Positions 34,977-56,416 of a stretch of 64,000 nt of DNA are shown in pieces (the stretch's first letter is position 1; every line of letters starts with the position of its first letter). This DNA is from Actinomadura rupiterrae (GTDB taxonomy: Bacteria > Actinomycetota > Actinomycetes > Streptosporangiales > Streptosporangiaceae). The position numbers and the translations under genes are program-made. The notes beneath the pieces are model-generated. The model did not search any database, was not told the DNA's origin, and saw only the letters and a program-made list of their open reading frames with translations. The stretch spans positions 744,001 through 808,000 of the forward strand of contig NZ_JAMZEA010000005.1 in assembly GCF_024172125.1 (NCBI RefSeq), read 5' to 3'.

Positions 34977-35862
34977 CGCGCAACCACCGCGCGTAACACC
35001 TGACCCACCCGACCGCGCGCCCCCGGTTCCCCGGGGCCGCGCGGTCGCCGCGTCCGGGCCACCCGGACGGCGCGCCCGGCTCGTCCGTCGGGGCGTCCGG
35101 GCCACACGGTCAGCGCGCCCGCGCCACCCGATCGCCGCGCCCGCACCACACGATCGGCGCGCCCGCGCCACCCGATCGGCGCGTACGTGGCCGCAAGGTC
35201 GGCGCGTCCTGGTCCGCACGGAGGGCGCGTCCGGGCCACGCGGACGGCGCGTCCGGGTCGTCCGATCGGCGCGCCCGCGCCACACGGTCAGCGCGCCCGG
35301 GCCGCGCGGTCAGTGCGTCCGGGCCGCGCGGTCTGTGCAGACGGGGCTGCGCGGTGGGCGCGTCCGGAGCCGCCCGATCGGCGCGTACGTGGCCGCAAGG
35401 TCGGCGCGTCCTGGTCCGCACGGACAGCACGCCCGGGCCACGCGGACGGCGCGTCCGGGTCGTCCGATCGGCGCGCCCACGCCACACGGTCAGCGCGCCC
35501 GCGCCGCCTGATCGGCGCGCCCGCGCCGCACAGTTAGTGCGTCCGGGCCGCGCGGCCAGTGCAGACGGGGCTGCGCGGTGGGCGCGTCCGGAGCCGCCCG
35601 ATCGGCGCGTACGTGGCCGCAAGGTCGGCGCGTCCTGGTCCGCACGGACAGCACGCCCGGGCCACGCGGACGGCGCGTCCGGGTCGTCCGATCGGCGCGC
35701 CCACGCCACACGGTCAGCGCGCCCGCGCCGCCTGATCGGCGCACAGTTAGTGCGTCCGGGCCGCGCGGCCAGTGCAGACGGGGCTGCGCGGTGGGCGCGT
35801 TCGGGGGCGCGCGGTCGGTCCGTTCGGGGCGCGCGGACGGTGCGGACGGGACGGGGCGGTGG
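34977..35862. repeat. Gene-free 22-bp repeat array with a 182-bp internal duplication
   Basis: About 890 bp without a gene. From roughly 35080 it is a tandem array of GC-rich units near 22 bp, with cores such as GCGCGTCCGGGCCACGCGG. Units at 35224, 35246, 35268, 35290 and 35312 are exactly 22 bp apart. A larger block, 35337-35518, recurs identically at 35561-35742, and a third copy begins near 35785. As 22 is not a multiple of three, no long repetitive protein is implied. Confidence 0.9.
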
Positions 35863-37065: not shown

Positions 37066-37555
37066 CCCTCAAGTCTGCCCGGCCCCTGCCCCTGCCCCTG
37101 CTCAGACCGTCCGCCACCGCGGCCCCATGATCAAGCCACCGCCCGAACCGCCCCCGCCCGAACCGGGCCAGCGCCGCCCGGCCAGCACCGTCCAGGCAAG
37201 CGCCGTCCGGGCCAACGCGGACCAGGCAAGCGCGGTCCAGGCCAACGCAGCCCAGGCGAACGCGGTCCAGGCCAACGCGGACCGGGCCAACGCGGACCGG
37301 GCCAACGCGGACCGGGTCAGCGGGAGCCGGGCCAGCGCGGGGCGGGCCAGCGCGGTCCAGGCCAGCGCAGGTCGGGCAAGCCCCGTCCAGGCCAGCGCGG
37401 GCCAGGCCAACGCGGGTCGGGGCAGCGCGGTCCAGGCCAGCGCGGGCCAGGTCAGCGGGAGCCGGGCAAGCGCCGTCCAGGCCGGCGCGGGCCAGGCCAG
37501 CGCGGACCGGGTCGGCGCGGGGCGGGTCAGCGCGGGCAGGGCGGGCAGGGCGGGG
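37066..37555. repeat. Exact 15-bp tandem array, 24 units, between the YezG-like gene and hemW
   Basis: From 37181 to 37540 the sequence is 24 consecutive units of exactly 15 bp (GCCAACGCGGACCGG at 37271, 37286 and 37301 are identical). Typical variation is GCCAGCGCGGNCCAG. Since 15 is a multiple of three, all frames give pentapeptide repeats, but none has a convincing start or a ribosome-binding site. 37066-37180 holds nothing else that I recognise. Confidence 0.9.
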
Positions 37556-47235: not shown

Positions 47236-47402
47236 GCGCTGCACGCGCGTTCCTTGTACCGACCCTGCGGGCGGAGCGATCATCTTGTCCGTGACCCGAG
47301 ACGGCACCCGGGACTTCAGCGGGCCCCCTTCGCGCCTGGTCGCCTGTCGTGGCGCAAGCAGCTCGTCCGGTCCGGGGGGTGTGGCATTGTTGGGGGGTGC
47401 CA

Positions 47403-48356
47403 GTGGACGCCATCACCCTGATCGTCGGAGACGAGGAGCTGCTCATCGAGCGGGCGGTGGGGGACATCGTCGCCTCGGCCCGCGCGGAGGACCCGGAGAC
47501 CGAGGTGATCGACCTCGTCCCCTCGGGGATGGAGCCGGGGCGCCTGGCGGAGATGACCTCCCCTTCGCTCTTCGGCGGCGGCAAGGTGCTGGTGCTCCGG
47601 TCCGCGCAGGACCTCAACAAGGATCTGGCGGCCGAAGTCCTCAGCTACGTGAAGAATCCCGCGCCGGACGTGGCGCTGGTCGCGGTGCACGCGGGCGGCG
47701 CCAAGGGCAAGGCCGTCGCCGACGGCCTGTCCAAGGCCGGCGCCCGCAAGATCGCCTGCCCGAAGATCACCAAGGCCGGTGAGCGGATCGACTTCGTCCG
47801 CGCCGAGATCCGCCGCCATGGCGGGAAGATCTCCGCTGACGGGGCGCGCACGCTCGTCGACGCGGTCGGCAACGACCTGCGCGAGCTCGCCGCGGCCTGC
47901 AGCCAGCTCGTCGCCGACACCGGCGGCAAGGTCGACGACGCCGCCATCGCCCGGTACTACCGGGGCCGCGCCGAGGTCAGCGGCTTCACCGTCGCCGACA
48001 AGGCCATCGAGGGCCACCTCGCGGACGCCCTGGAGCAGCTGCGCTGGGCCCTGGCCACCGGAGTCGCTCCCGTCCTCATCGTCAGCGCCCTCGCCCAGGG
48101 CGTGCGGGGTCTGGCCAAGGTGGGCGGCGCCCCCCGGGGAGCGCGCGGCGCCTCCCTGGCCAAGGACCTGGGCATGCCCCCCTGGAAGATCGACCGCGTC
48201 CAGCGCCAGCTGCGGGGCTGGTCCGGCGACGGCGTGGCCCGCGCCCTCACTGTCGTGGCCGAAGCGGACGCCCAGGTCAAGGGCGGTGCCGCCGACCCCG
48301 CCTATGCTCTCGAAAAGGCCGTGTCCCAGATCGTCCACGCCCGCTCCTCCCGTTAG
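47403..48356 (+). CDS. holA: DNA polymerase III subunit delta
   Basis: The clamp-loader subunit that opens the sliding clamp. It has 317 residues. Motifs are ITLIVGDEELLIERAV at the start (P-loop remnant), LFGGGKVLVLRSAQ, an AAA+-like lid, ELRELAAACSQL, and the C-terminal collar helices WKIDRVQRQL and GGAADPAYALEKAVSQIV. I prefer the GTG at 47403, with a run of GGGGGG 6 nt upstream; the GTG at 47397 is 6 bp earlier and also in frame. holA, comEC and comEA are adjacent in many actinobacteria. The 3' end overlaps the comEC stop by a few bases. Confidence 0.93.
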   Translation: MDAITLIVGDEELLIERAVGDIVASARAEDPETEVIDLVPSGMEPGRLAEMTSPSLFGGGKVLVLRSAQDLNKDLAAEVLSYVKNPAPDVALVAVHAGGAKGKAVADGLSKAGARKIACPKITKAGERIDFVRAEIRRHGGKISADGARTLVDAVGNDLRELAAACSQLVADTGGKVDDAAIARYYRGRAEVSGFTVADKAIEGHLADALEQLRWALATGVAPVLIVSALAQGVRGLAKVGGAPRGARGASLAKDLGMPPWKIDRVQRQLRGWSGDGVARALTVVAEADAQVKGGAADPAYALEKAVSQIVHARSSR

Positions 48357-50866
48357 TGGCGCGCGACGGTGGCCAGCCCCGTCCGCGTCCGGACGACGGC
48401 GATGTCTCCCTGCTGGTCGGTGCGGAGCACGCGGATGCCCAGGTGTTGCAGCAGCGCGACCGTCACCGGTGACGGATGCCCGTAATCGTTGTTCTTGCCC
48501 ACCGAGATCAGGCCGATCGAGGCGTGGGCCGCAGCCAGGAACGCGCGGTGCTGGCTGCGCGAACCATGATGCGGAACCTTGAGCACCTGGACGTGCGGGA
48601 CGGCTGACACGAGCGCCTGCTGCGCCTCGGTCTCCACATCGCCCGGCAGGAGCGCGCTGAAGCCGGGCCGAGTCGCGACCAGGACGATGCTGGCGTTGTT
48701 CATGGTCGTCCCGTCGTCGCCCGGAGTCAGCCGGGGCTTGGACGGCATCGGAGCCAGGACGGACAGCCCGAGATCTCCGATCCGCCACGTCTCGCCCGGA
48801 AGCGCGGGACGCATGGGAGTGCGCCCCGTGAACCGCGCCTCGCGACCGAAACCAAGCGGGGTGACCAGTACCAGCCCCACGCGCCTCCCGTGCAGGACGC
48901 CCGGCACCCCGTCGATGTGGTCGGCATGCGGATGCGTCAAGACCAGTAAGGGAACCTCGCGAACGCGCAGGCGGCTGAGGCACCCGTCCATCACGTCCGG
49001 ATCCGGCCCCGCGTCCACGACAACGCCACGTCCCGTGCCCGCGGCCAGGACGAGTCCGTCCCCCTGGCCGACATCACAGGCGACAAGCTGCCACCCGGGC
49101 GGCGGCCAACCCGGCGCAAGGACGTGCATGCAGACGACGCCGACCAGGACACCTACGACCGCGGCGGCGAACACCAACCGCAGCCGGGCTGAACGCAGCA
49201 TCACTACGGTCACGCCAGCCGCCGCGACCAGTCCGAACGCTCCCAGCGCCCCACTCGTCCAGGGCAAGGTGGCATAGGGCAGCGTCGCGGCCGTGCGAGC
49301 GACCCAGATGATCCATCGGACTGGGAACTGCGCCGGCCGGAGGATCATCCCCGCCAGCCCGTCCGAGAACGGCGCGACCACGGCGGCCACCGCTCCGAGC
49401 AGCGTCGCTGGGGCGACCGCCGGATCGGCGAGCAGGTTCGCAGCGATCGAAACGACGCCAAGCTCCCCAGACATCATCACCAGGATCGGCGCGACCGCCA
49501 GCTCGGCCGCCAGCGCAACAGCCAGGGCGTCCGCCACGCGCTCCGGCAACCTCCGTCGCAGCCGCTCCCGCCATGCAGGCGCGAGCACCAGCAACCCGGC
49601 CGTAGCAGCGACCGAAAGCGCGAACCCGTACGACCGACTCAGCTCCGGATCGACCAGGACGAGCAACAACACGGCACCCGCCAGAGCAGGCACCCCCTGA
49701 CGCGGACGCCCCGTAAAGAGCGCAAGCAGTCCCACCGCCGCCATCACCGCAGCCCGGAGCACGCTCGGATCCGGCCGCGCGATGACGACGAACCCCACGA
49801 CGGCCAGGCCCGCGATCAGCGGAGCACTCCGCCTCCCCACCCCGCACATCCGGCAGAGAGCCAGAACGGCCCCGACCACGATCGCCAGATTGGCGCCGGA
49901 AACCACCAGCAGATGGCTCAGCCCAGCCGTGGTGAAGTCGTCCGCAAGGTCCGGATCCAACCGCGATGTGTCCCCCACGACCATCGCAGGCAGGACGCCC
50001 CGAACGTCCGGCCGAAGCACGCTTGCCGCGTCCCGAAGCTTCGCCCGAACACCGCTCGCCGCCCGCTGCACCCGCGACGGCCCGCCCACCACGACCGGAG
50101 GCCCCCGCACCAGCACCACCGCCGCCAGCAACTCCGCCCGCTTGGACGGTACATACCGCCCGAAACACCGCACCTTCGCGCTCGGAACCAACCGGCTCCA
50201 CTCCCGTCCCGAAGCAAGCAACAGCACCGGCACCCTCGTCCGCGTCCCCTCGAACGACTCCACACGAGCCCGAACGATCACCACCTCCCGTCCGCCCACC
50301 CGCTTCACCTTCGGATCCCCCGCCACCGCAACCACCGCCCCCGCACTCCGATGCGCAAGCCCGGCTTCCCAAACCGGCCCGCCCCGAACCGCCTCCTCCC
50401 GAACCCCAACCCCCACTGCCGAAACCGCCACACAAACCAACCCAACCCCCACCCACCCCCCCAAACTCCGACCCCCACCAAGCACCAGCCGACCATCGCC
50501 CCGGCCACCCGCCCCCTCACGCCCCACACCTCGATCACGGACAACCTCACCATCCGCACCCCGGCCACAGGCCCCCTCAAATCCCCCACCTCCAGCCAGG
50601 GCCCCTTCCAACTCCACGACCCGCCCCCGCTTCACACCGCGCCGCCCCTCCCCACGCCGACCGACCGCCCACACGAGCAGCACGCACCCCACAACCCCGC
50701 AGACCCCACCCACCAACGCGCAAACCCACGCGTCGAACCCCAAACAAACAAGCGCCGCACCCCACGCCCCCGCCGCCGGCCCAACAAGCCGCAAATCCTG
50801 CTCAACTACCTCCCGCTCGTCCTCTCCCCCATCCCCCCGCTCCGACCGCACCCCGACCTCCCGCAT
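48353..50866 (-). CDS. comEC: Competence protein ComEC (DNA uptake channel)
   Basis: An 837-residue membrane protein that forms the channel for single-stranded DNA uptake. An N-terminal DUF4131-like soluble region (to about residue 235) is followed by a competence domain with about eight helices including LSHLLVVSGANLAIVVGAVL, then helices such as APATLLGAVAAVVAPFSDGL. The C-terminal metallo-beta-lactamase domain carries VACDVGQGDG, LTHPHADHIDG (zinc-type histidines) and VPHHGSRSQH. The ATG at 50866 has GGAGAGGGG at the usual distance. An open frame extends over 500 codons further upstream, but only through repeats. comEA, normally adjacent, lies 3.3 kb away. No natural competence is known to be implied in such organisms. 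Confidence 0.93.
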   Translation of the reverse strand: MREVGVRSERGDGGEDEREVVEQDLRLVGPAAGAWGAALVCLGFDAWVCALVGGVCGVVGCVLLVWAVGRRGEGRRGVKRGRVVELEGALAGGGGFEGACGRGADGEVVRDRGVGREGAGGRGDGRLVLGGGRSLGGWVGVGLVCVAVSAVGVGVREEAVRGGPVWEAGLAHRSAGAVVAVAGDPKVKRVGGREVVIVRARVESFEGTRTRVPVLLLASGREWSRLVPSAKVRCFGRYVPSKRAELLAAVVLVRGPPVVVGGPSRVQRAASGVRAKLRDAASVLRPDVRGVLPAMVVGDTSRLDPDLADDFTTAGLSHLLVVSGANLAIVVGAVLALCRMCGVGRRSAPLIAGLAVVGFVVIARPDPSVLRAAVMAAVGLLALFTGRPRQGVPALAGAVLLLVLVDPELSRSYGFALSVAATAGLLVLAPAWRERLRRRLPERVADALAVALAAELAVAPILVMMSGELGVVSIAANLLADPAVAPATLLGAVAAVVAPFSDGLAGMILRPAQFPVRWIIWVARTAATLPYATLPWTSGALGAFGLVAAAGVTVVMLRSARLRLVFAAAVVGVLVGVVCMHVLAPGWPPPGWQLVACDVGQGDGLVLAAGTGRGVVVDAGPDPDVMDGCLSRLRVREVPLLVLTHPHADHIDGVPGVLHGRRVGLVLVTPLGFGREARFTGRTPMRPALPGETWRIGDLGLSVLAPMPSKPRLTPGDDGTTMNNASIVLVATRPGFSALLPGDVETEAQQALVSAVPHVQVLKVPHHGSRSQHRAFLAAAHASIGLISVGKNNDYGHPSPVTVALLQHLGIRVLRTDQQGDIAVVRTRTGLATVARH

Positions 50867-51379
50867 CTCAACCCCTCTCCACCAACCCGACCCCACAAAT
50901 AAGTCCCGCCCACAACCTCGCCCCCCAACCGGCACCCCCTCCCACCAGCCAGCCACAACCACCAACGCCCTGGAGACCAGACAGCCGCCCCCTCCGCACA
51001 CCAAGGCGCACAACGCCCTTCCCACCGAGCCGACTTGGCTCGCAAACGCAGGCGTGCGCGCCACACACGCATGGACCACGCGTGCGAGCGCGGCACGCAT
51101 GAACCGATCGTGCGTTGGCCGGCCAAGCCTGGCGGACGGGCCCGTCCACATGTACGGGCAGCAGGAGCGCCCATCACGCGGGCATGCTCCAAGCGGGCGC
51201 GACACCGCGCCTCCGAAGCACCTGGCCAGCCCACCACCGGCCCCCGCCCTGCGCGGATCGCAATACGAGCACGAGTGGCAGGGACGCGCCCGCGCCACAG
51301 GTGCGTAGCCAGCAAGGCCACGTCGGGCCTCGCAAACCCGTGCCATCCAGTGCCAAAGCCCACAGCCCACAGCCGCAAC

Positions 51380-52320
51380 ACGGCGCGCGCGCCAGGCAGG
51401 CGCCCGCGACACCGGCCCGCCCACGCAGACGCACCCAGCCCGTGCATACGCGAAGCAGGGTGCACGAGGCAGGCGTGCACAACTTGAGCATGTGCGAGGC
51501 AGGCCTCCGCGAACCAGACGTGCGCGACACGGGCCCGCCCAGGCAGACGCACCCAGCCGGGGCAGGCGCAAGGCACACGGCGGCGAACAAGACTGCGCGA
51601 CACGCGTTTGCGCGACACGAGCGCGCCCAGCGCAGGCGCACCCAACCCGAGCCTGCGCGAGGCGAGCAGGCAAGCGCGGCACAGGGCGTCCGAAACGCAA
51701 GCGTGCGCGAGACAAGCTCGCCCAGGCAAAGGAACCCAGCCCGAGCCTGTGCCGCTCAAACGTGCACGAAGCAGAGGCGCACGGCGCAAGCATGCGCAAC
51801 AGGGGGCCGTTCCGGCAGGCCCACACAGCCCGCGCATGCGCGAGGCAGGCACGCACGAGGCAAGCAGGCACGACACCGGGCGTCCGCCGCGTCCGGAACA
51901 CAGGCATGCGGTACAGAGGCCCGCCCCCGCAGCCGCACCAACCCGAGCAGGCGCGAAGCGGGGGTCCGCGAGACAGGCGAGTGCAACACGGCCCGACCCA
52001 AGCAGACGCACCCAACCCGAGCCTGTGCGAGCCAAACATGCACGAAGCAGAGGCGCACGGCGCAAGCCTGCGCAAGGGGGGCCGTTCCGGCAGGGCCCAC
52101 ACAACCCGAGCATGCGCGAAGCCGGCACGCACGAGGCAAGCAGGCACGACACTGGACGTCTGCGGCGTCCGCGACACAGGCAGCGCTGCAGAGGCCCGCG
52201 CCACGCAGCGGCACCAACCCGAGCATGCGCGAAGCCGGGGGTGCGCGAGACAGGCGTGTGCAACACGGCCCGTCCCAAGCAGGCGCACCCGGCCCGAGTC
52301 CGCGCAAGGTAAACGCTCGC
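51380..52320. repeat. Degenerate higher-order repeat upstream of comEC (31-bp core, 276-bp period)
   Basis: A core like CAGACGCACCCAACCCGAGC recurs at 51426, 51544, 51633, 51727, 51930, 52003, 52206 and 52280. Between 51727 and 52280 the spacings alternate 203 and 73 bp, revealing a 276-bp duplication: CACGAAGCAGAGGCGCACGG at about 51765 repeats at 52041. Copies differ at roughly one base in ten. Confidence 0.8.
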
Positions 52321-52788
52321 GAACCAGACTGCGAGCGATGCATGCGAGACAGACATGCGCGCCACGTGGCGTATGCGAGACAGGCATGCGCAATACGGCA
52401 GGCGCGAGGCGACCGTCCGCAATATGCGGGGGTGACACGGCGCGGCCCAGGCAGGCGCGCGCAGCACGGGTAGGCGGGGCGTGCGGGCGGTAGCGGGCGC
52501 GGAACCGGCTGGCGTAGGGCGGTGGTGCATCGGGTGTTGGGGCGCTGGCGTGTGAAGTGGGGTCGTGTGCGGAGGCGAGCTGCGGGTGGGGTCGGCTGGT
52601 GCCGTTCCGCGCTGTGCTTCGTAGTCGCTCCGTCTTTCACCTTGCTGGCGGTACTGGGGCGGGCGGGTGCGTGTGCCTTCGCCCGGCCGCTTCGTGCGAT
52701 CTGCACTGGGTTCGTATCCAGGGTCATCGGTGCCTCCAGCGGTTGAGTTCTGGGTTGAGGTGGTCACCTCGGAGTCGGTCTCGTCGGA

Positions 52789-52829
52789 ACCCGGGCGCGA
52801 TCGGAGTGCTAGCTCGATCGCGCCCGGGT
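52789..52829. terminator. Perfect 15-bp inverted repeat (hairpin or binding site)
   Basis: ACCCGGGCGCGATCG and CGATCGCGCCCGGGT are perfect complements around an 11-nt loop (GAGTGCTAGCT). It could be a bidirectional terminator or an operator. It lies about 1.9 kb upstream of comEC and 1.4 kb downstream of comEA, away from any gene I accept. Confidence 0.6.
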
Positions 52830-53390
52830 CCGTTCGGCGCAGATTTGGATGAGCGGACCGTGGGACGCAGCGCGGGAGGGGCTAGAGAGCTGGGTGTGGA
52901 CGTGGCCATAGGAAGTTTTGAGGGCTGGGAGGTGACGTGGGTTGGGTGGTGACTGCTTCGGCTGTTGAGGTGGTTGGCGGCGGGCTCGGAGTTCGGCAGC
53001 ATGCGTGGGGTCCTGTTCGGGATGGCGGCGTGGGTGTTCCTGAGTGCGGCGCGGTGGTTGTGGTGTCGGAGGTGAAGGTCAGGAGGCGGCGCGGGAAGGA
53101 CGAACGTTCGGGCTCGTATGTCGTGTACTCGAGTGCTGCAGATGCGGGTTCGGGTGTTGTCGCTTGTGTCTGGCTTGGCGTGAAGCGGATCGGGCCAGGC
53201 GGGAGTGCTCGGAATCGGGCGCGTTCGTGCGGGTGGTCGGGCGCGAGCATGGCCTGTCGAGGGGCGATGGCCTGCGCCACTCGACGATGGATCGGATTCA
53301 GACAGTGCTAGGGCGGGTGAACGGGGCTCGAATGGGTCTGGGACGCACGCTCTGGATGGGGACGGACGGGCCTGGCACGGGCAGGTCTGG

Positions 53391-53715
53391 GACGGGCGGG
53401 CCTGGGACGGGCGGGCGCGAGCTGGACAGACCTGGCTGAGCTGGCCGGCCCGGACCGGGCTGGACAGGACGGCCCGGACCGGACCGGGTCGGGTGGAACG
53501 GGCCGGGACGGACCTGGCCGGGTGGGACGGGCTAGGACGGAACGGGTCGGGACGGAACGGGTCGGGACGGACCTGGCCGGGTGGGACGGGCTAGGACGGA
53601 ACGGGTCGGGACGGAACGGGTCGGGACGGAACGGGTCGGGACGGAACGGGTCGGGACGGAACGGGTCGGGACGGAACGGGTCGGGGCGGAGCGGGTCGGG
53701 GCGGAGCGGGCTGAG
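53391..53715. repeat. 15-bp tandem array downstream of comEA
   Basis: ACGGAACGGGTCGGG occurs as six perfect consecutive units from 53596 to 53685, followed by two units with GCGGAGCGG variants. To the left a 60-bp block containing CTGGCCGGGTGGGACGGGCT is duplicated (around 53530 and 53571), embedded in looser GGACGGGC repeats. Confidence 0.92.
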
Positions 53716-54204
53716 CCGGAACTGGCTGGCTGGAGCGTGTTGGACCTGATGAGGACGGTCTCGGAGGAGCGCTTGGGACGGGCGTGGACTTCGGGCAGTT
53801 CGGGCATCCGTCCGGCGGAGCCCTGCTGTTGGGGCCCCGCTGCTGCTGCCGTGACGCTCCTACTGGCGTGGCCCTCGTGTTGGCGGGCCCGCTGTTGGTG
53901 TGGATATGGAGCGTGCTTGGGCGTCTGGCTGGCGGGGCCTTTACGTGGGCCTCGTCCTCTTCTGGGCGGTGGTGGCGGCGGAGTTCTGGGGGCTCGGTGG
54001 AAGCTTCGGGCGCGGGGATGGGACGGGGGCGGGCCTGCGGCCTGAAGTAGGAGGTCATGGACTCTGGGTGGGCTGGTTCGGAGCGGGGTTGGAGTAGTCG
54101 GTGGGCGCGGAGTTGGGGTGGCTTGGTTCTGGAGAGATGGTTTGGGCTTTGGTGGCGATGGAGCTGGGTGGGGAGCGTGCGTTGGCGTGGGGCAGTTGGG
54201 TGGG

Positions 54205-55071
54205 TCAGTTTGAGGTTGTTAGTAGGGGTTTTAGGTCGGTTAGGCGGCGGGCTCCTATGCCGGGGACGTCTTGGAGTTGGTCGGTGGTGTGGAAGGGGCC
54301 GTGCTGGGTGCGGTAGTCGATGATGCGGCGGGCCAGGACGGGGCCTACTCCGGGGAGTTGGTCCAGTTGGTCGGCGGTTGCGGAGTTCAGGTCCAGGGGG
54401 CTTGTCGGTGCGGGGGTTCCTGCTGTGGTGGGCGGGGCCGGGCCTTGGCCTGGGGCTGGGGGCGGCGGGTGGATGCCTACGGCTATCTGTTCGCCGTCGG
54501 TGAGTTTGCGGGCCAGGTTCAGGGCACCGGTGTCGGTGCCTGGGCGGATGCCGCCGGCGGCGTTCAGGGCGTCCGCCACTCGGGAGCCGGAGGGCAGGGT
54601 CAGGACGCCTGGGCGGTGGACCTTGCCGATCACTTGGACCACCAGCTGAGTGGCGGTGGACGGCTGGGTGGACGTGGTGGAGGCCCGGTCGGCCGACGTG
54701 ACCGAGAGGGACGGGGCCGTGGCCGCGGATGGCGTCACCGGGTCGGGGCGGGGGCGGGCCATCCAGAGGTAGCCGACGGCGACGAGGATCGCGAGGGCGC
54801 CGACGATCAGGAGCGCTCGCGTGCCGCCCAGGCCCGGGTCCAGGCGGTCGTGGTCCAGCAGGGTTCGGGCGCGGGTCACCAGGCGCTTGGCCAGCGGTTC
54901 GGAGGTGGCGTTGCGGGTGTTCCGGGAGGTCGGGGCGCGGACGGCTTGCTCGGGTGGGTGTGCTTCGCGGCGCGGGCTGGGAGGGCGGTTCCGGGGGGAT
55001 GGGGGTTCGGGGGTTTGGGGGGTTGAGCGTAGGTGGGCGGACGGTGGGGGCATCGGGTCGAAAAGGTTCAT
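54205..55071 (-). CDS. comEA: Competence-type DNA-binding protein ComEA
   Basis: A membrane-anchored DNA receptor, 288 residues. A Pro-rich cytoplasmic N-terminus is followed by one helix (ALLIVGALAILVAVGYLWM). A Thr/Ser linker leads to an SLBB domain (VVQVIGKVHRPGVLTLPSGS, ADALNAAGGIRPGTD), then after a second Pro-rich linker the DNA-binding double helix-hairpin-helix: LDLNSATADQLDQLPGVGPV, LARRIIDYR, LQDVPGIGARRL. The ATG at 55071 is the start. The order holA, comEC, comEA is conserved, but here comEA is displaced by the repeat segment. Two domains of the com system being intact argues the genes are maintained. Confidence 0.93.
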   Translation of the reverse strand: MNLFDPMPPPSAHLRSTPQTPEPPSPRNRPPSPRREAHPPEQAVRAPTSRNTRNATSEPLAKRLVTRARTLLDHDRLDPGLGGTRALLIVGALAILVAVGYLWMARPRPDPVTPSAATAPSLSVTSADRASTTSTQPSTATQLVVQVIGKVHRPGVLTLPSGSRVADALNAAGGIRPGTDTGALNLARKLTDGEQIAVGIHPPPPAPGQGPAPPTTAGTPAPTSPLDLNSATADQLDQLPGVGPVLARRIIDYRTQHGPFHTTDQLQDVPGIGARRLTDLKPLLTTSN

Positions 55072-55208
55072 GCAATTGACGTTAGGAGAGACCGCGAGCG
55101 GGGTGCTAGTCGCTCGCCGATCTGTGGATAACTCCCGTTTCTGCTGGTGAGAGAGCTGAGCCTAAGAGGGAATCAAGATCGTCGGGGATGGGCGGTAGAT
55201 TGCCGGTC

Positions 55209-55571
55209 ATGTCGCGTCTGCTGGGGATTTTCGGGTGCATTCTGGTCTGTCTTGTGGCGGCGGATTCCCGGGCGGGGTCGGAGATCAACTCGGGATCCGC
55301 GGCTTGGCGGGCCGGGTTCGCGGCGGCGGAAACCGAGGTCACTCAAACTCCGCAGCAGCCGGGCGGAAGGATTGTGCTCGCCGTTTACGGGTTTACCGGC
55401 ACCCCTGGGCCCTATGCGCGGTGTGCTGCATTGTTCGAGGTCAAGCACGTCCGGCAGCGCGTTACGGACGTTCCGGTGTGGCCGATGCCGCGCGGTATTC
55501 GGCTCGGCAGTAAGGCCGGGAACGCGTACGAAGCGGGTTGGATCGAGCGGTGCCTGCGGCAGCGGCGCTAG
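55209..55571 (+). CDS. Small exported protein, unknown
   Basis: A likely 120-residue secreted or membrane-anchored protein. The ATG at 55209 starts MSRLLGIFGCILVCLVAADS, a signal-peptide-like segment. The mature part has a YGFTGTPGPYARCAALF segment and a C-terminal ERCLRQRR, giving two cysteines that could pair. Third-position GC is lower than in neighbours, so the gene may be recently acquired or weakly expressed. The stop shares a CTAG with the convergent degV stop. An alternative in-frame ATG at 55188 would put charged residues before the signal. No family recognised. Confidence 0.5.
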   Translation: MSRLLGIFGCILVCLVAADSRAGSEINSGSAAWRAGFAAAETEVTQTPQQPGGRIVLAVYGFTGTPGPYARCAALFEVKHVRQRVTDVPVWPMPRGIRLGSKAGNAYEAGWIERCLRQRR

Positions 55572-56416
55572 GAGAGCTGCGGCGCCACCACCACGCCGAG
55601 CATGCCCGGGCCGACGTGTGCGCCTATGACGGGTCCCACTTCGCCTATGTAGACGTCCACCACGTTCGGGATGCGCGCGCGGAGCTCTGCGGCCAAGGCT
55701 TCGGCCCGCGAGGACGCCGCGAGGTGCTGGATGCCCAGGTCGACAGGACGGTCAGCAGCCTCGGCCACGGCGAGGTCGGCCAGACGGGCCAGAGCGCGTG
55801 ACGTGGTGCGCACCTTCTCCAGGGGTTTGACGCGTCCGGACGAGATGCCCAGCAAAGGCTTCACCATGAGCGCGGTGCCGAGCAGGTTGGCAGCGGCTCC
55901 GATGCGTCCGCCGCGGCGCAGGTGTTCGAGGTTGTCGACGTAGAAGAGCGATCGCGACAGCTCGGCTCGGCGTTCGGCTGCGGCAACGGCCTCGGCAGGC
56001 GCTGTGCCTTGCAGGGCGGCCGCGGCGGCGGAGAGGGCGGCGAAGCCCAGGCCCATGCCGATCGTGCCCGAGTCGACGACGTGGACGGGGACGGGCGAGT
56101 CCTCGGCGGCGAAGCGCGCCGCCTCCACCGTCCCGGACATCGAGCCCGAAAGGTGCACCGAGACCACTGCGGACGCGCCCGACTCCGCGGCCGAGGCGTA
56201 GACGGCCGAAAAGCGTTCCGGCGACGGACGGGACGTCGTGACCGGATGCCATTCGCGTAGCGCGCGTGCGGTTTCGGCGGTCGTGATGGCGTCCTCGTCG
56301 CGGACGTCGCCGCCGACGATGAGTTGCAGTGGGACGACCGTGATGCCGTGCCGGTCTGCGAGGTCCCGGGGAAGGTAGGACGTGGAGTCCGTGACGACCG
56401 CTACCGCGCTGCCCAT
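55568..56416 (-). CDS. DegV-family fatty-acid-binding protein
   Basis: A 282-residue member of the DegV (FakB-like) family, which binds a single fatty acid for phosphorylation by FakA. Markers are VVTDSTSYLP (phosphate-side loop, Thr/Ser), TTSRPSPERF, SVHLSGSMSGT and VVDSGTIGMGLGFAAL, plus YVDNLEHLRRGGRIGAAANL. The ATG at 56416 begins MGSAVAVVT. In actinobacteria degV commonly neighbours comEA. No FakA-type kinase is in this window, so the partner lies elsewhere. All family residues are present. Confidence 0.9.
   Translation of the reverse strand: MGSAVAVVTDSTSYLPRDLADRHGITVVPLQLIVGGDVRDEDAITTAETARALREWHPVTTSRPSPERFSAVYASAAESGASAVVSVHLSGSMSGTVEAARFAAEDSPVPVHVVDSGTIGMGLGFAALSAAAAALQGTAPAEAVAAAERRAELSRSLFYVDNLEHLRRGGRIGAAANLLGTALMVKPLLGISSGRVKPLEKVRTTSRALARLADLAVAEAADRPVDLGIQHLAASSRAEALAAELRARIPNVVDVYIGEVGPVIGAHVGPGMLGVVVAPQLS

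Follow-up and report, generated by a model that had tools for sequence, protein, structure and literature searches.

Why does about 3.3 kb of DNA separate comEA from comEC in Actinomadura rupiterrae, given that these conserved neighbours often overlap in its relatives? We addressed this question in a window of 64,000 nt (contig NZ_JAMZEA010000005.1, positions 744,001 to 808,000) of the A. rupiterrae genome, which comprises 10.24 Mb in 24 contigs. A first-pass annotation of this window had described comEC and comEA as intact yet pushed apart by an insert, and had proposed the latter as the best candidate in the window for an undescribed element. The two genes are indeed intact and apart. The spacer between them is non-coding, built of repeats and unconserved; its layout recurs on unrelated sequence in another species of the genus (genome G016), and the polarity of its strand composition flips within it, a change also seen at synonymous sites of the flanking genes. 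We tentatively favour the explanation that a lineage-specific spacer grew by slippage at an unstable junction, and that it may carry a comEC promoter firing outwards.

To compare junctions, we measured the distance from the comEA stop codon to ComEC residue 140 (conserved core) in 38 loci, one genome per species, 35 of them from the same genus. The comEA-comEC junction is a hotspot of length variation, ranging from 161 to 3,755 nt, and is longest in A. rupiterrae. It is followed by G016 (3,068 nt) and by the closest named relatives, A. oligospora (2,411 nt), A. harenae (G018; 1,707 nt) and A. logoneensis (G034; 1,058 nt), whose ComEC core identity is 83%; the other 33 loci have junctions of 161-1,019 nt. 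An in-frame comEC ATG overlapping the comEA stop codon (ATGA) is present in 25 of the 35 relatives scored and in 24 of 32 from the same genus, an in-frame ATG being no proof of its use as a start. The earlier statement that these genes are normally compact thus agrees with the overlap possible in most congeners. The genome G016 is part of the length survey, the tree and the correlations given below, and stands outside the overlap count, the survey of arrays in nine relatives and the flip count over 36 junctions. The partial loci L035, L036, L045, L067 and L068 were omitted from the tree, and L035 and L067 give no comEC row in the tables of fourfold-degenerate sites. Genome G013 and the first contig of G004 have no comEC on the stretch examined and are outside the counts. 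In G013 (locus L035, contig C416), the comEA match stops 168 nt from the contig end and the whole assembly lacks a Competence domain, as would happen if the junction had resisted assembly.

The long spacers of these relatives share no detectable sequence with that of A. rupiterrae. Alignments that include the end of comEA, which makes up the first 60 bases, yield matches of 68 bases with A. harenae and 47 bases with A. logoneensis. Comparison of spacer with spacer gave best scores of 28.3 bits for A. oligospora, 30.1 for A. harenae, 24.7 for A. logoneensis and 26.5 for G016, each lower than the best of 20 shuffled controls (34.6, 31.0, 31.0 and 34.6, respectively). The first-pass annotation had suggested a comparison with sister species and had named unrelated DNA in the same place in all relatives as the outcome that would speak against its reading; the observed junctions, unrelated to the one studied here and of other lengths, come near to this. 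Tandem arrays are found in the junctions of nine relatives outside the clade of the window, and these arrays differ from species to species. With up to the first four arrays per locus considered, the main periods are divisible by three in eight of these relatives (192, 15, 81, 72/144, 147, 42/84, 36/108 and 63 nt), the exception being a weak 17-nt array. The window clade has a support of 1.0 and excludes G016; therefore, the two largest spacers are of separate origin.

The spacer lacks codon structure. In 26 windows of 240 nt, the chi-square of codon periodicity (6 degrees of freedom) has a median of 4.6 and a maximum of 12.1, the corresponding values being 33.7 in the comEC core and 46.4 in sampled windows of the genome. 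A denser tiling (six tilings, 155 overlapping windows) gave a median of 5.0, with six windows above 12.6. All six lie off the comEC frame, and five of them start at 52907-52987, the top value being 21.9; coding at about 52907-53190 was rejected, as both open reading frames have negative codon scores (-82 and -70) and lack a coding-type GC pattern. The comEC frame itself is open upstream to 52438, with GC content even across the three codon positions above the start. Long open frames arise in the spacer because the plus strand is poor in T and any stop codon on either strand requires a T there. By codon score, the locus is the longest coding-poor stretch among 364 gaps in a 464-kb sample of the genome, at 4,949 nt (a figure that takes in a part of comEC overlooked by the score), and the next is 2,545 nt. 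A Pfam search of eight open reading frames returned the ComEC domains and one chance match (E 0.62). Two features support the start of comEC at 50866. Its ATG occupies 50864-50866, with the Shine-Dalgarno-like sequence GGAGAGG just upstream on the minus strand, and comEC codon periodicity sets in at about 50,880. A stretch beginning at GTG 52767, which resembles a disordered N-terminus, was considered as the remnant of an earlier start site of comEC and rejected for want of codon structure.

Nor does the spacer look like an inserted element. A DNA search of 59 genomes with 51380-52320, the search for other copies proposed at first pass, recovered the locus itself and three short matches in other genomes. 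The same search with 52480-54204 gave matches in 31 of the 59 genomes, its own included, nearly all of them short and located in the array region, and these represent other minisatellites or low-complexity DNA only. Phage and plasmid records contain no match to the spacer, and no transposase or integrase domain was detected by Pfam in the eight open reading frames, as the annotation had stated. Terminal inverted repeats were not found: the 25 longest of 106 inverted pairs are 70-91% complementary, and the pair closest to both spacer ends (50760-50789 and 54163-54192) is 70% complementary. Given the lack of copies, mobile genes and phage or plasmid matches, a discrete insertion was rejected. 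What stands of the earlier interpretation is a real, non-coding, repeat-rich stretch without mobile genes; its description as an insert or discrete element does not, near species having unrelated DNA at this place.

Two arrays account for about 44% of the spacer, and both repeats reported at first pass are real. The degenerate 276-bp repeat is a tandem duplication derived from a part of an older, degenerate 15-bp array, and single-base gaps separate its copies, as expected of non-coding DNA. The 15-bp array on the right is younger; Tandem Repeats Finder (TRF) places it at 53480-53710 with 15.6 copies. Head-to-tail copies above chance, the mark of a minisatellite, were thus found both by TRF and by autocorrelation. 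The remaining parts of the spacer (50867-51380, 52480-53350 and 53740-54204) have weak periodicity at most, with best lag z-scores of 2.5, 2.7 and 3.5, respectively. The spacer also contains the hairpin described earlier as a perfect 15-bp one; its arms are perfect and measure 14 bp. Its sequence occurs once in the genome and in none of 58 relatives, and its folding z-score is -6.1 on the plus strand and -5.6 on the minus strand. In 464 kb of this genome, 27 perfect hairpins have arms of 14 bp or longer, hence the class is common here. The strength of this hairpin, together with a strand composition that fits transcription, is what could be said for a large non-coding RNA or a structured comEC leader selected as such. 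We regard that possibility as very doubtful: Rfam has no match at E <= 1 in 50000-56000, the near species conserve no sequence of the spacer, and similar hairpins are many.

Minisatellites as such are frequent in A. rupiterrae. In 40 stretches of 20 kb, TRF cover has a mean of 3.9% and a median of 2.1%, and 18 of the 40 exceed 2.61%, the highest cover among 40 comparison stretches. The latter come from 11 other genomes, of which ten belong to the same genus; some are drafts, in which repeats may be lost, and several are single contigs. Stretches with 10-17% repeat cover, well beyond anything in the congeners sampled, include C5:120001-220000 (L168-L170) and C1:200001-220000 (L206). The window contains two more large minisatellites: one at 35034-35818 repeats a 22-bp unit about 32 times and has a 224-bp higher-order repeat, and one at 37166-37537 repeats a 15-bp unit about 25 times. 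Loss of the mismatch endonuclease NucS was considered as a cause of the repeat load and rejected, NucS being present. With such a load, repeats alone are ordinary in this genome; what distinguishes the locus is where they lie, how long the spacer is and that strand composition flips within it.

The plus strand is dominated by C and A up to about 52.2-52.5 kb and by G and T beyond it. Scored as the smaller of its two arms, the flip reaches 792 with arms of 2.5 kb, while the runner-up in 41 stretches of the same genome has 508 and the best of 40 stretches from other genomes has 344. The asymmetry extends into the genes on both sides. At fourfold-degenerate sites, comEC has a G-C skew of +0.41 and an A-T skew of -0.51, and comEA has -0.45 and +0.76. 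After correction for amino acids, the fourfold skew of comEC is the second highest of 275 genes and that of comEA the sixth lowest; the 5' half of comEC exceeds all 274 others. Along comEC, the skew starts at +0.86 in the 5'-most bin and declines, not monotonically, to +0.12 in the last one, and that of comEA peaks at its 3' end, beside the spacer. The asymmetry that points outwards from a centre, an indirect sign of a divergent promoter, is therefore present at this locus. Among 36 junctions, 12 exceed the 95th centile of the null (1.8 expected) and 29 exceed its median, these counts being descriptive only, as the species are related and the search lengths unequal. Junction length correlates with the fourfold skew of the comEC 5' part over all loci (rho 0.47, p 0.005), and with that of comEA over all loci, with the window clade collapsed and with it removed (rho -0.37, -0.41 and -0.36; p 0.03, 0.02 and 0.05). 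Flips elsewhere in this genome, at L221 (about 7060), L210 (about 12640) and L214 (about 13320), were examined as instances of the same arrangement and rejected: they are mostly codon-periodic DNA with few repeats. Codons 1-150 of comEC (50414-50866, minus strand) are rich in Gly, Arg and Val, their coding strand containing long runs of G, and the plus-strand window 50001-51000 has a GC skew of -0.54, the most extreme among 907 windows. The G-rich 5' end of comEC is a possible site of G-quadruplexes.

Several other explanations were weighed. Plain slippage and decay with no transcription from within, leaving neutral junk that inherits its skew from multiplied short units, would agree with the abundance of minisatellites in this genome (the mean cover given above) and with the species specificity of the arrays. 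However, the skew is also found in array-free parts of the spacer and at the fourfold sites of the conserved comEC, comEA and holA, and we consider this account somewhat unlikely. Three further readings, namely a mobile or integrated element, an N-terminal coding extension of ComEC and an ectopic origin of replication, are extremely improbable even taken together. The frame open to 52438 might suggest an extension, and the outward skew is as at an origin, but the first two are opposed by the missing copies, mobile genes and codon periodicity, the last of which led us to reject the extension, and the origin by a spacer with no DnaA-box-like 9-mers (one simple pattern was searched) and about 70% GC throughout.

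Substitutions on the lineage of A. rupiterrae suggest that the bias follows the chromosome strand. We counted directed changes at fourfold sites where three near relatives share the majority base of the outgroup. On the plus strand, comEC has G-to-C changes at 22 of 60 sites and C-to-G at 5 of 48 (p 0.002); the inverted holA has G-to-C at 18 of 37 and C-to-G at 5 of 31 (p 0.005). Since holA reads opposite to comEC, the bias is tied to the chromosome strand, not to the gene. The holA gene is inverted relative to comEC here, in A. oligospora and in A. logoneensis, and in A. logoneensis it also lies about 3 kb from comEC; in A. harenae it is collinear with comEC (loci L085, L086 and L087 for the three relatives). 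Its fourfold skew is +0.27 in A. harenae and -0.31 here. The left-hand neighbour of holA changes the same way (two counts, with p 0.18 and 0.04), and hutI has no bias (p 1).

These drifts also bear on a zone of Rho-dependent termination, in which a C-rich, G-poor stretch after comEA would load Rho, insulate comEC and be selected to stay C-rich. The first 400 nt past comEA, on its own strand, are C-rich and G-poor (GC skew -0.39); across the genome, the last tenth of genes is shifted towards C (-0.13), and the 120 nt downstream have -0.076 (167 genes). Yet such a zone leaves unexplained the large excess of A over T (+0.51 after comEA, with +0.76 at the fourfold sites of comEA), the predominance of G and T on the comEC side and the drift of the inverted holA, and it appears decidedly doubtful.

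A parallel comes from G016 (L034, 1796-4500), where a non-coding spacer of about 2.7 kb lies between comEA and a comEC located by Pfam and by BLAST without composition correction. Of its 12 intergenic windows of 240 nt, 11 have no periodicity and one has a value of 18.6. The DNA directly after comEA is C/A-rich (skews -0.70 and +0.73) and carries a 25-bp array; after the flip, G/T-rich DNA with a 27-bp array precedes comEC. The flanking genes follow suit, with +0.45 and -0.54 in the first third of comEC and -0.56 and +0.65 in comEA. The same mirror-image composition on unrelated sequence hints at a recurring local process. The coordinates of the A. rupiterrae locus are collected in the table below. 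A small predicted gene of 127 aa (55188-55571, plus strand) lies upstream of comEA on the opposite strand and has no Pfam match at E <= 1.

Table. Coordinates of the comEA-comEC locus in the window
Feature	Coordinates	Strand	Description
holA	47349..48356	+	convergent with comEC; strand bias as in the left arm
comEC	48353..50866	-	837 aa; Pfam Competence 9.2e-53, Lactamase_B 1.1e-07
comEA-comEC spacer	50867..54204		3,338 bp, non-coding; from sequence and absence of codon periodicity
Old degenerate 15-bp minisatellite	51380..52470		autocorrelation: lag-15 z 7.8, lag-276 z 9.2
276-bp tandem duplication	51734..52298		TRF: 2.0 copies, 88% matches
Flip zone	52150..52504		G-C minimum 52220, T-A minimum 52504, combined minimum 52422-52460
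Hairpin, perfect 14-bp arms	52789..52829		arms 52789-52802 and 52816-52829
Younger 15-bp array with 5-bp sub-repeat	53359..53740		TRF and autocorrelation
comEA	54205..55071	-	288 aa; stop codon 54205-54207; homologues in 58 of 59 genomes at E <= 0.001

In the explanation we favour, slippage of tandem repeats followed by decay would build the spacer at a place of recurrent DNA gain and loss in the genus. In most congeners, this place coincides with the 5' end of the comEC frame, which is variable in length, often contains repeats and may overlap comEA. Judged by its position, the spacer probably originated from this unconstrained 5' end, its homology being no longer detectable. The stretch is non-coding and comEC starts downstream at 50866, so the stretch could grow free of any constraint on frame. 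A comEC promoter located within the spacer, at about 52.2-52.9 kb, would fire both ways and expose the non-template strand; the leftward transcript would be a leader of 1.4-2 kb running into comEC, and the rightward one would be antisense to comEA. The same exposure of strands may favour repeat instability. Transcription running outwards into comEC could leave a strand composition of this kind, so the spacer could yield a long leader or non-coding RNA, as suggested at first pass. Transcription that starts in the spacer and runs both ways is the likeliest single cause, being the simplest, of an outward bias that fades over a few kilobases. A stronger version, in which a divergent promoter exposes strands, exposure brings biased substitutions and tandem duplications, and a self-reinforcing site of expansion thereby produces unrelated kilobase-long spacers of the same mirror-image composition again and again, seems unlikely to us. 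Its biased substitutions would be those read at synonymous sites and in a holA that was first inverted and then drifted towards the bias of the region.

Several observations weigh against outward transcription as the source of the bias. With arms of 1.2 kb, the flip scores 264, below the top value of 298 elsewhere in the genome, and by G-C alone with arms of 1.5 kb it ranks second; breadth is therefore its exceptional feature. Five of the 36 junctions have no flip at all, and flips in relatives partly reflect biased protein sequence. The correlation of junction length with comEC skew weakens to 0.33 (p 0.07) with the clade collapsed and to 0.26 (p 0.17) with it removed, and holA, intended as a control, correlates too (-0.36 to -0.50, p 0.06-0.01). 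A weak 5'-to-3' gradient is general to genes of this genome: in 299 predicted genes, the fourfold G-C skew goes from +0.06 in the first tenth to -0.13 in the last, and in the four other genomes sampled the effect at the 3' end is reduced or lacking. In the right arm, the changes point the opposite way to the left arm and are not significant, either in comEA (under the less strict of two counts, C-to-G 5 of 19 and G-to-C 5 of 42, p 0.26; p 0.48 when counted strictly) or in degV (p 0.07-0.08). A scan for the sigma-70 consensus, which covers one promoter type, found no site where 0.2 were expected. Finally, G-C transversions come first among the directed changes, as C-to-G when read on the comEC strand, where deamination would give C-to-T. 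Simple deamination is therefore insufficient, and the idea that deaminated cytosine alone produced the skew is not supported. We can only guess at damage to an exposed strand with error-prone repair as the source of these transversions.

Conserved bacterial neighbours that often overlap are not usually parted by kilobases of non-coding DNA, and here one genus offers a series from overlap to 3.3 kb together with two unrelated large spacers of common layout and a genome unusually loaded with minisatellites. Should this layout be a record of outward transcription, promoters and antisense RNAs of GC-rich actinomycetes could be located from base composition alone, and transcription-driven growth of repeats in bacteria could be tested at this locus. 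Otherwise, it is still a clear case of non-coding DNA growing between adjacent bacterial genes.

Compared with the comEA-comEC-holA neighbourhood of Actinobacteria, the locus has the same adjacent genes and intact ComEC domains, but 3.3 kb part comEA from comEC and holA is inverted. In vertebrates, GC-skewed promoters that form R-loops have a skew that changes sign at the transcription start. The sign change is common to both systems, the start being putative here; in contrast, our case is bacterial, involves both G-C and T-A skew, extends to synonymous sites of flanking genes and would involve R-loops only putatively. Arrays, spacers and divergent promoters are all known kinds of feature, and the new part is a mirror-image spacer recurring at one junction; our literature searches on tandem repeats in Actinomadura, actinobacterial minisatellites, Rho sites, comEC and comEA in Actinomadura, skew and R-loops, divergent bacterial promoters and transcription-linked deamination gave no description of it. 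Bidirectional bacterial promoters are a known kind according to excerpts of two reports (PMC10268837; PMC12825309). The putative promoter would likewise send transcripts outwards from one centre, as the skew suggests, but it is deduced from composition and has no sigma-70-like site. Bacterial satellites, as excerpts of a survey describe them, are arrays of short units repeated head to tail, either intergenic or in frame within genes; repeat lengths divisible by three predominate, and unique arrays of Clostridium difficile cluster in two regions (PMC6749651). The arrays studied here likewise consist of short head-to-tail units. Unlike the satellites of those excerpts, they gather at one junction across species with no sequence in common, and in both A. 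rupiterrae and G016 they flank a flip of strand composition.

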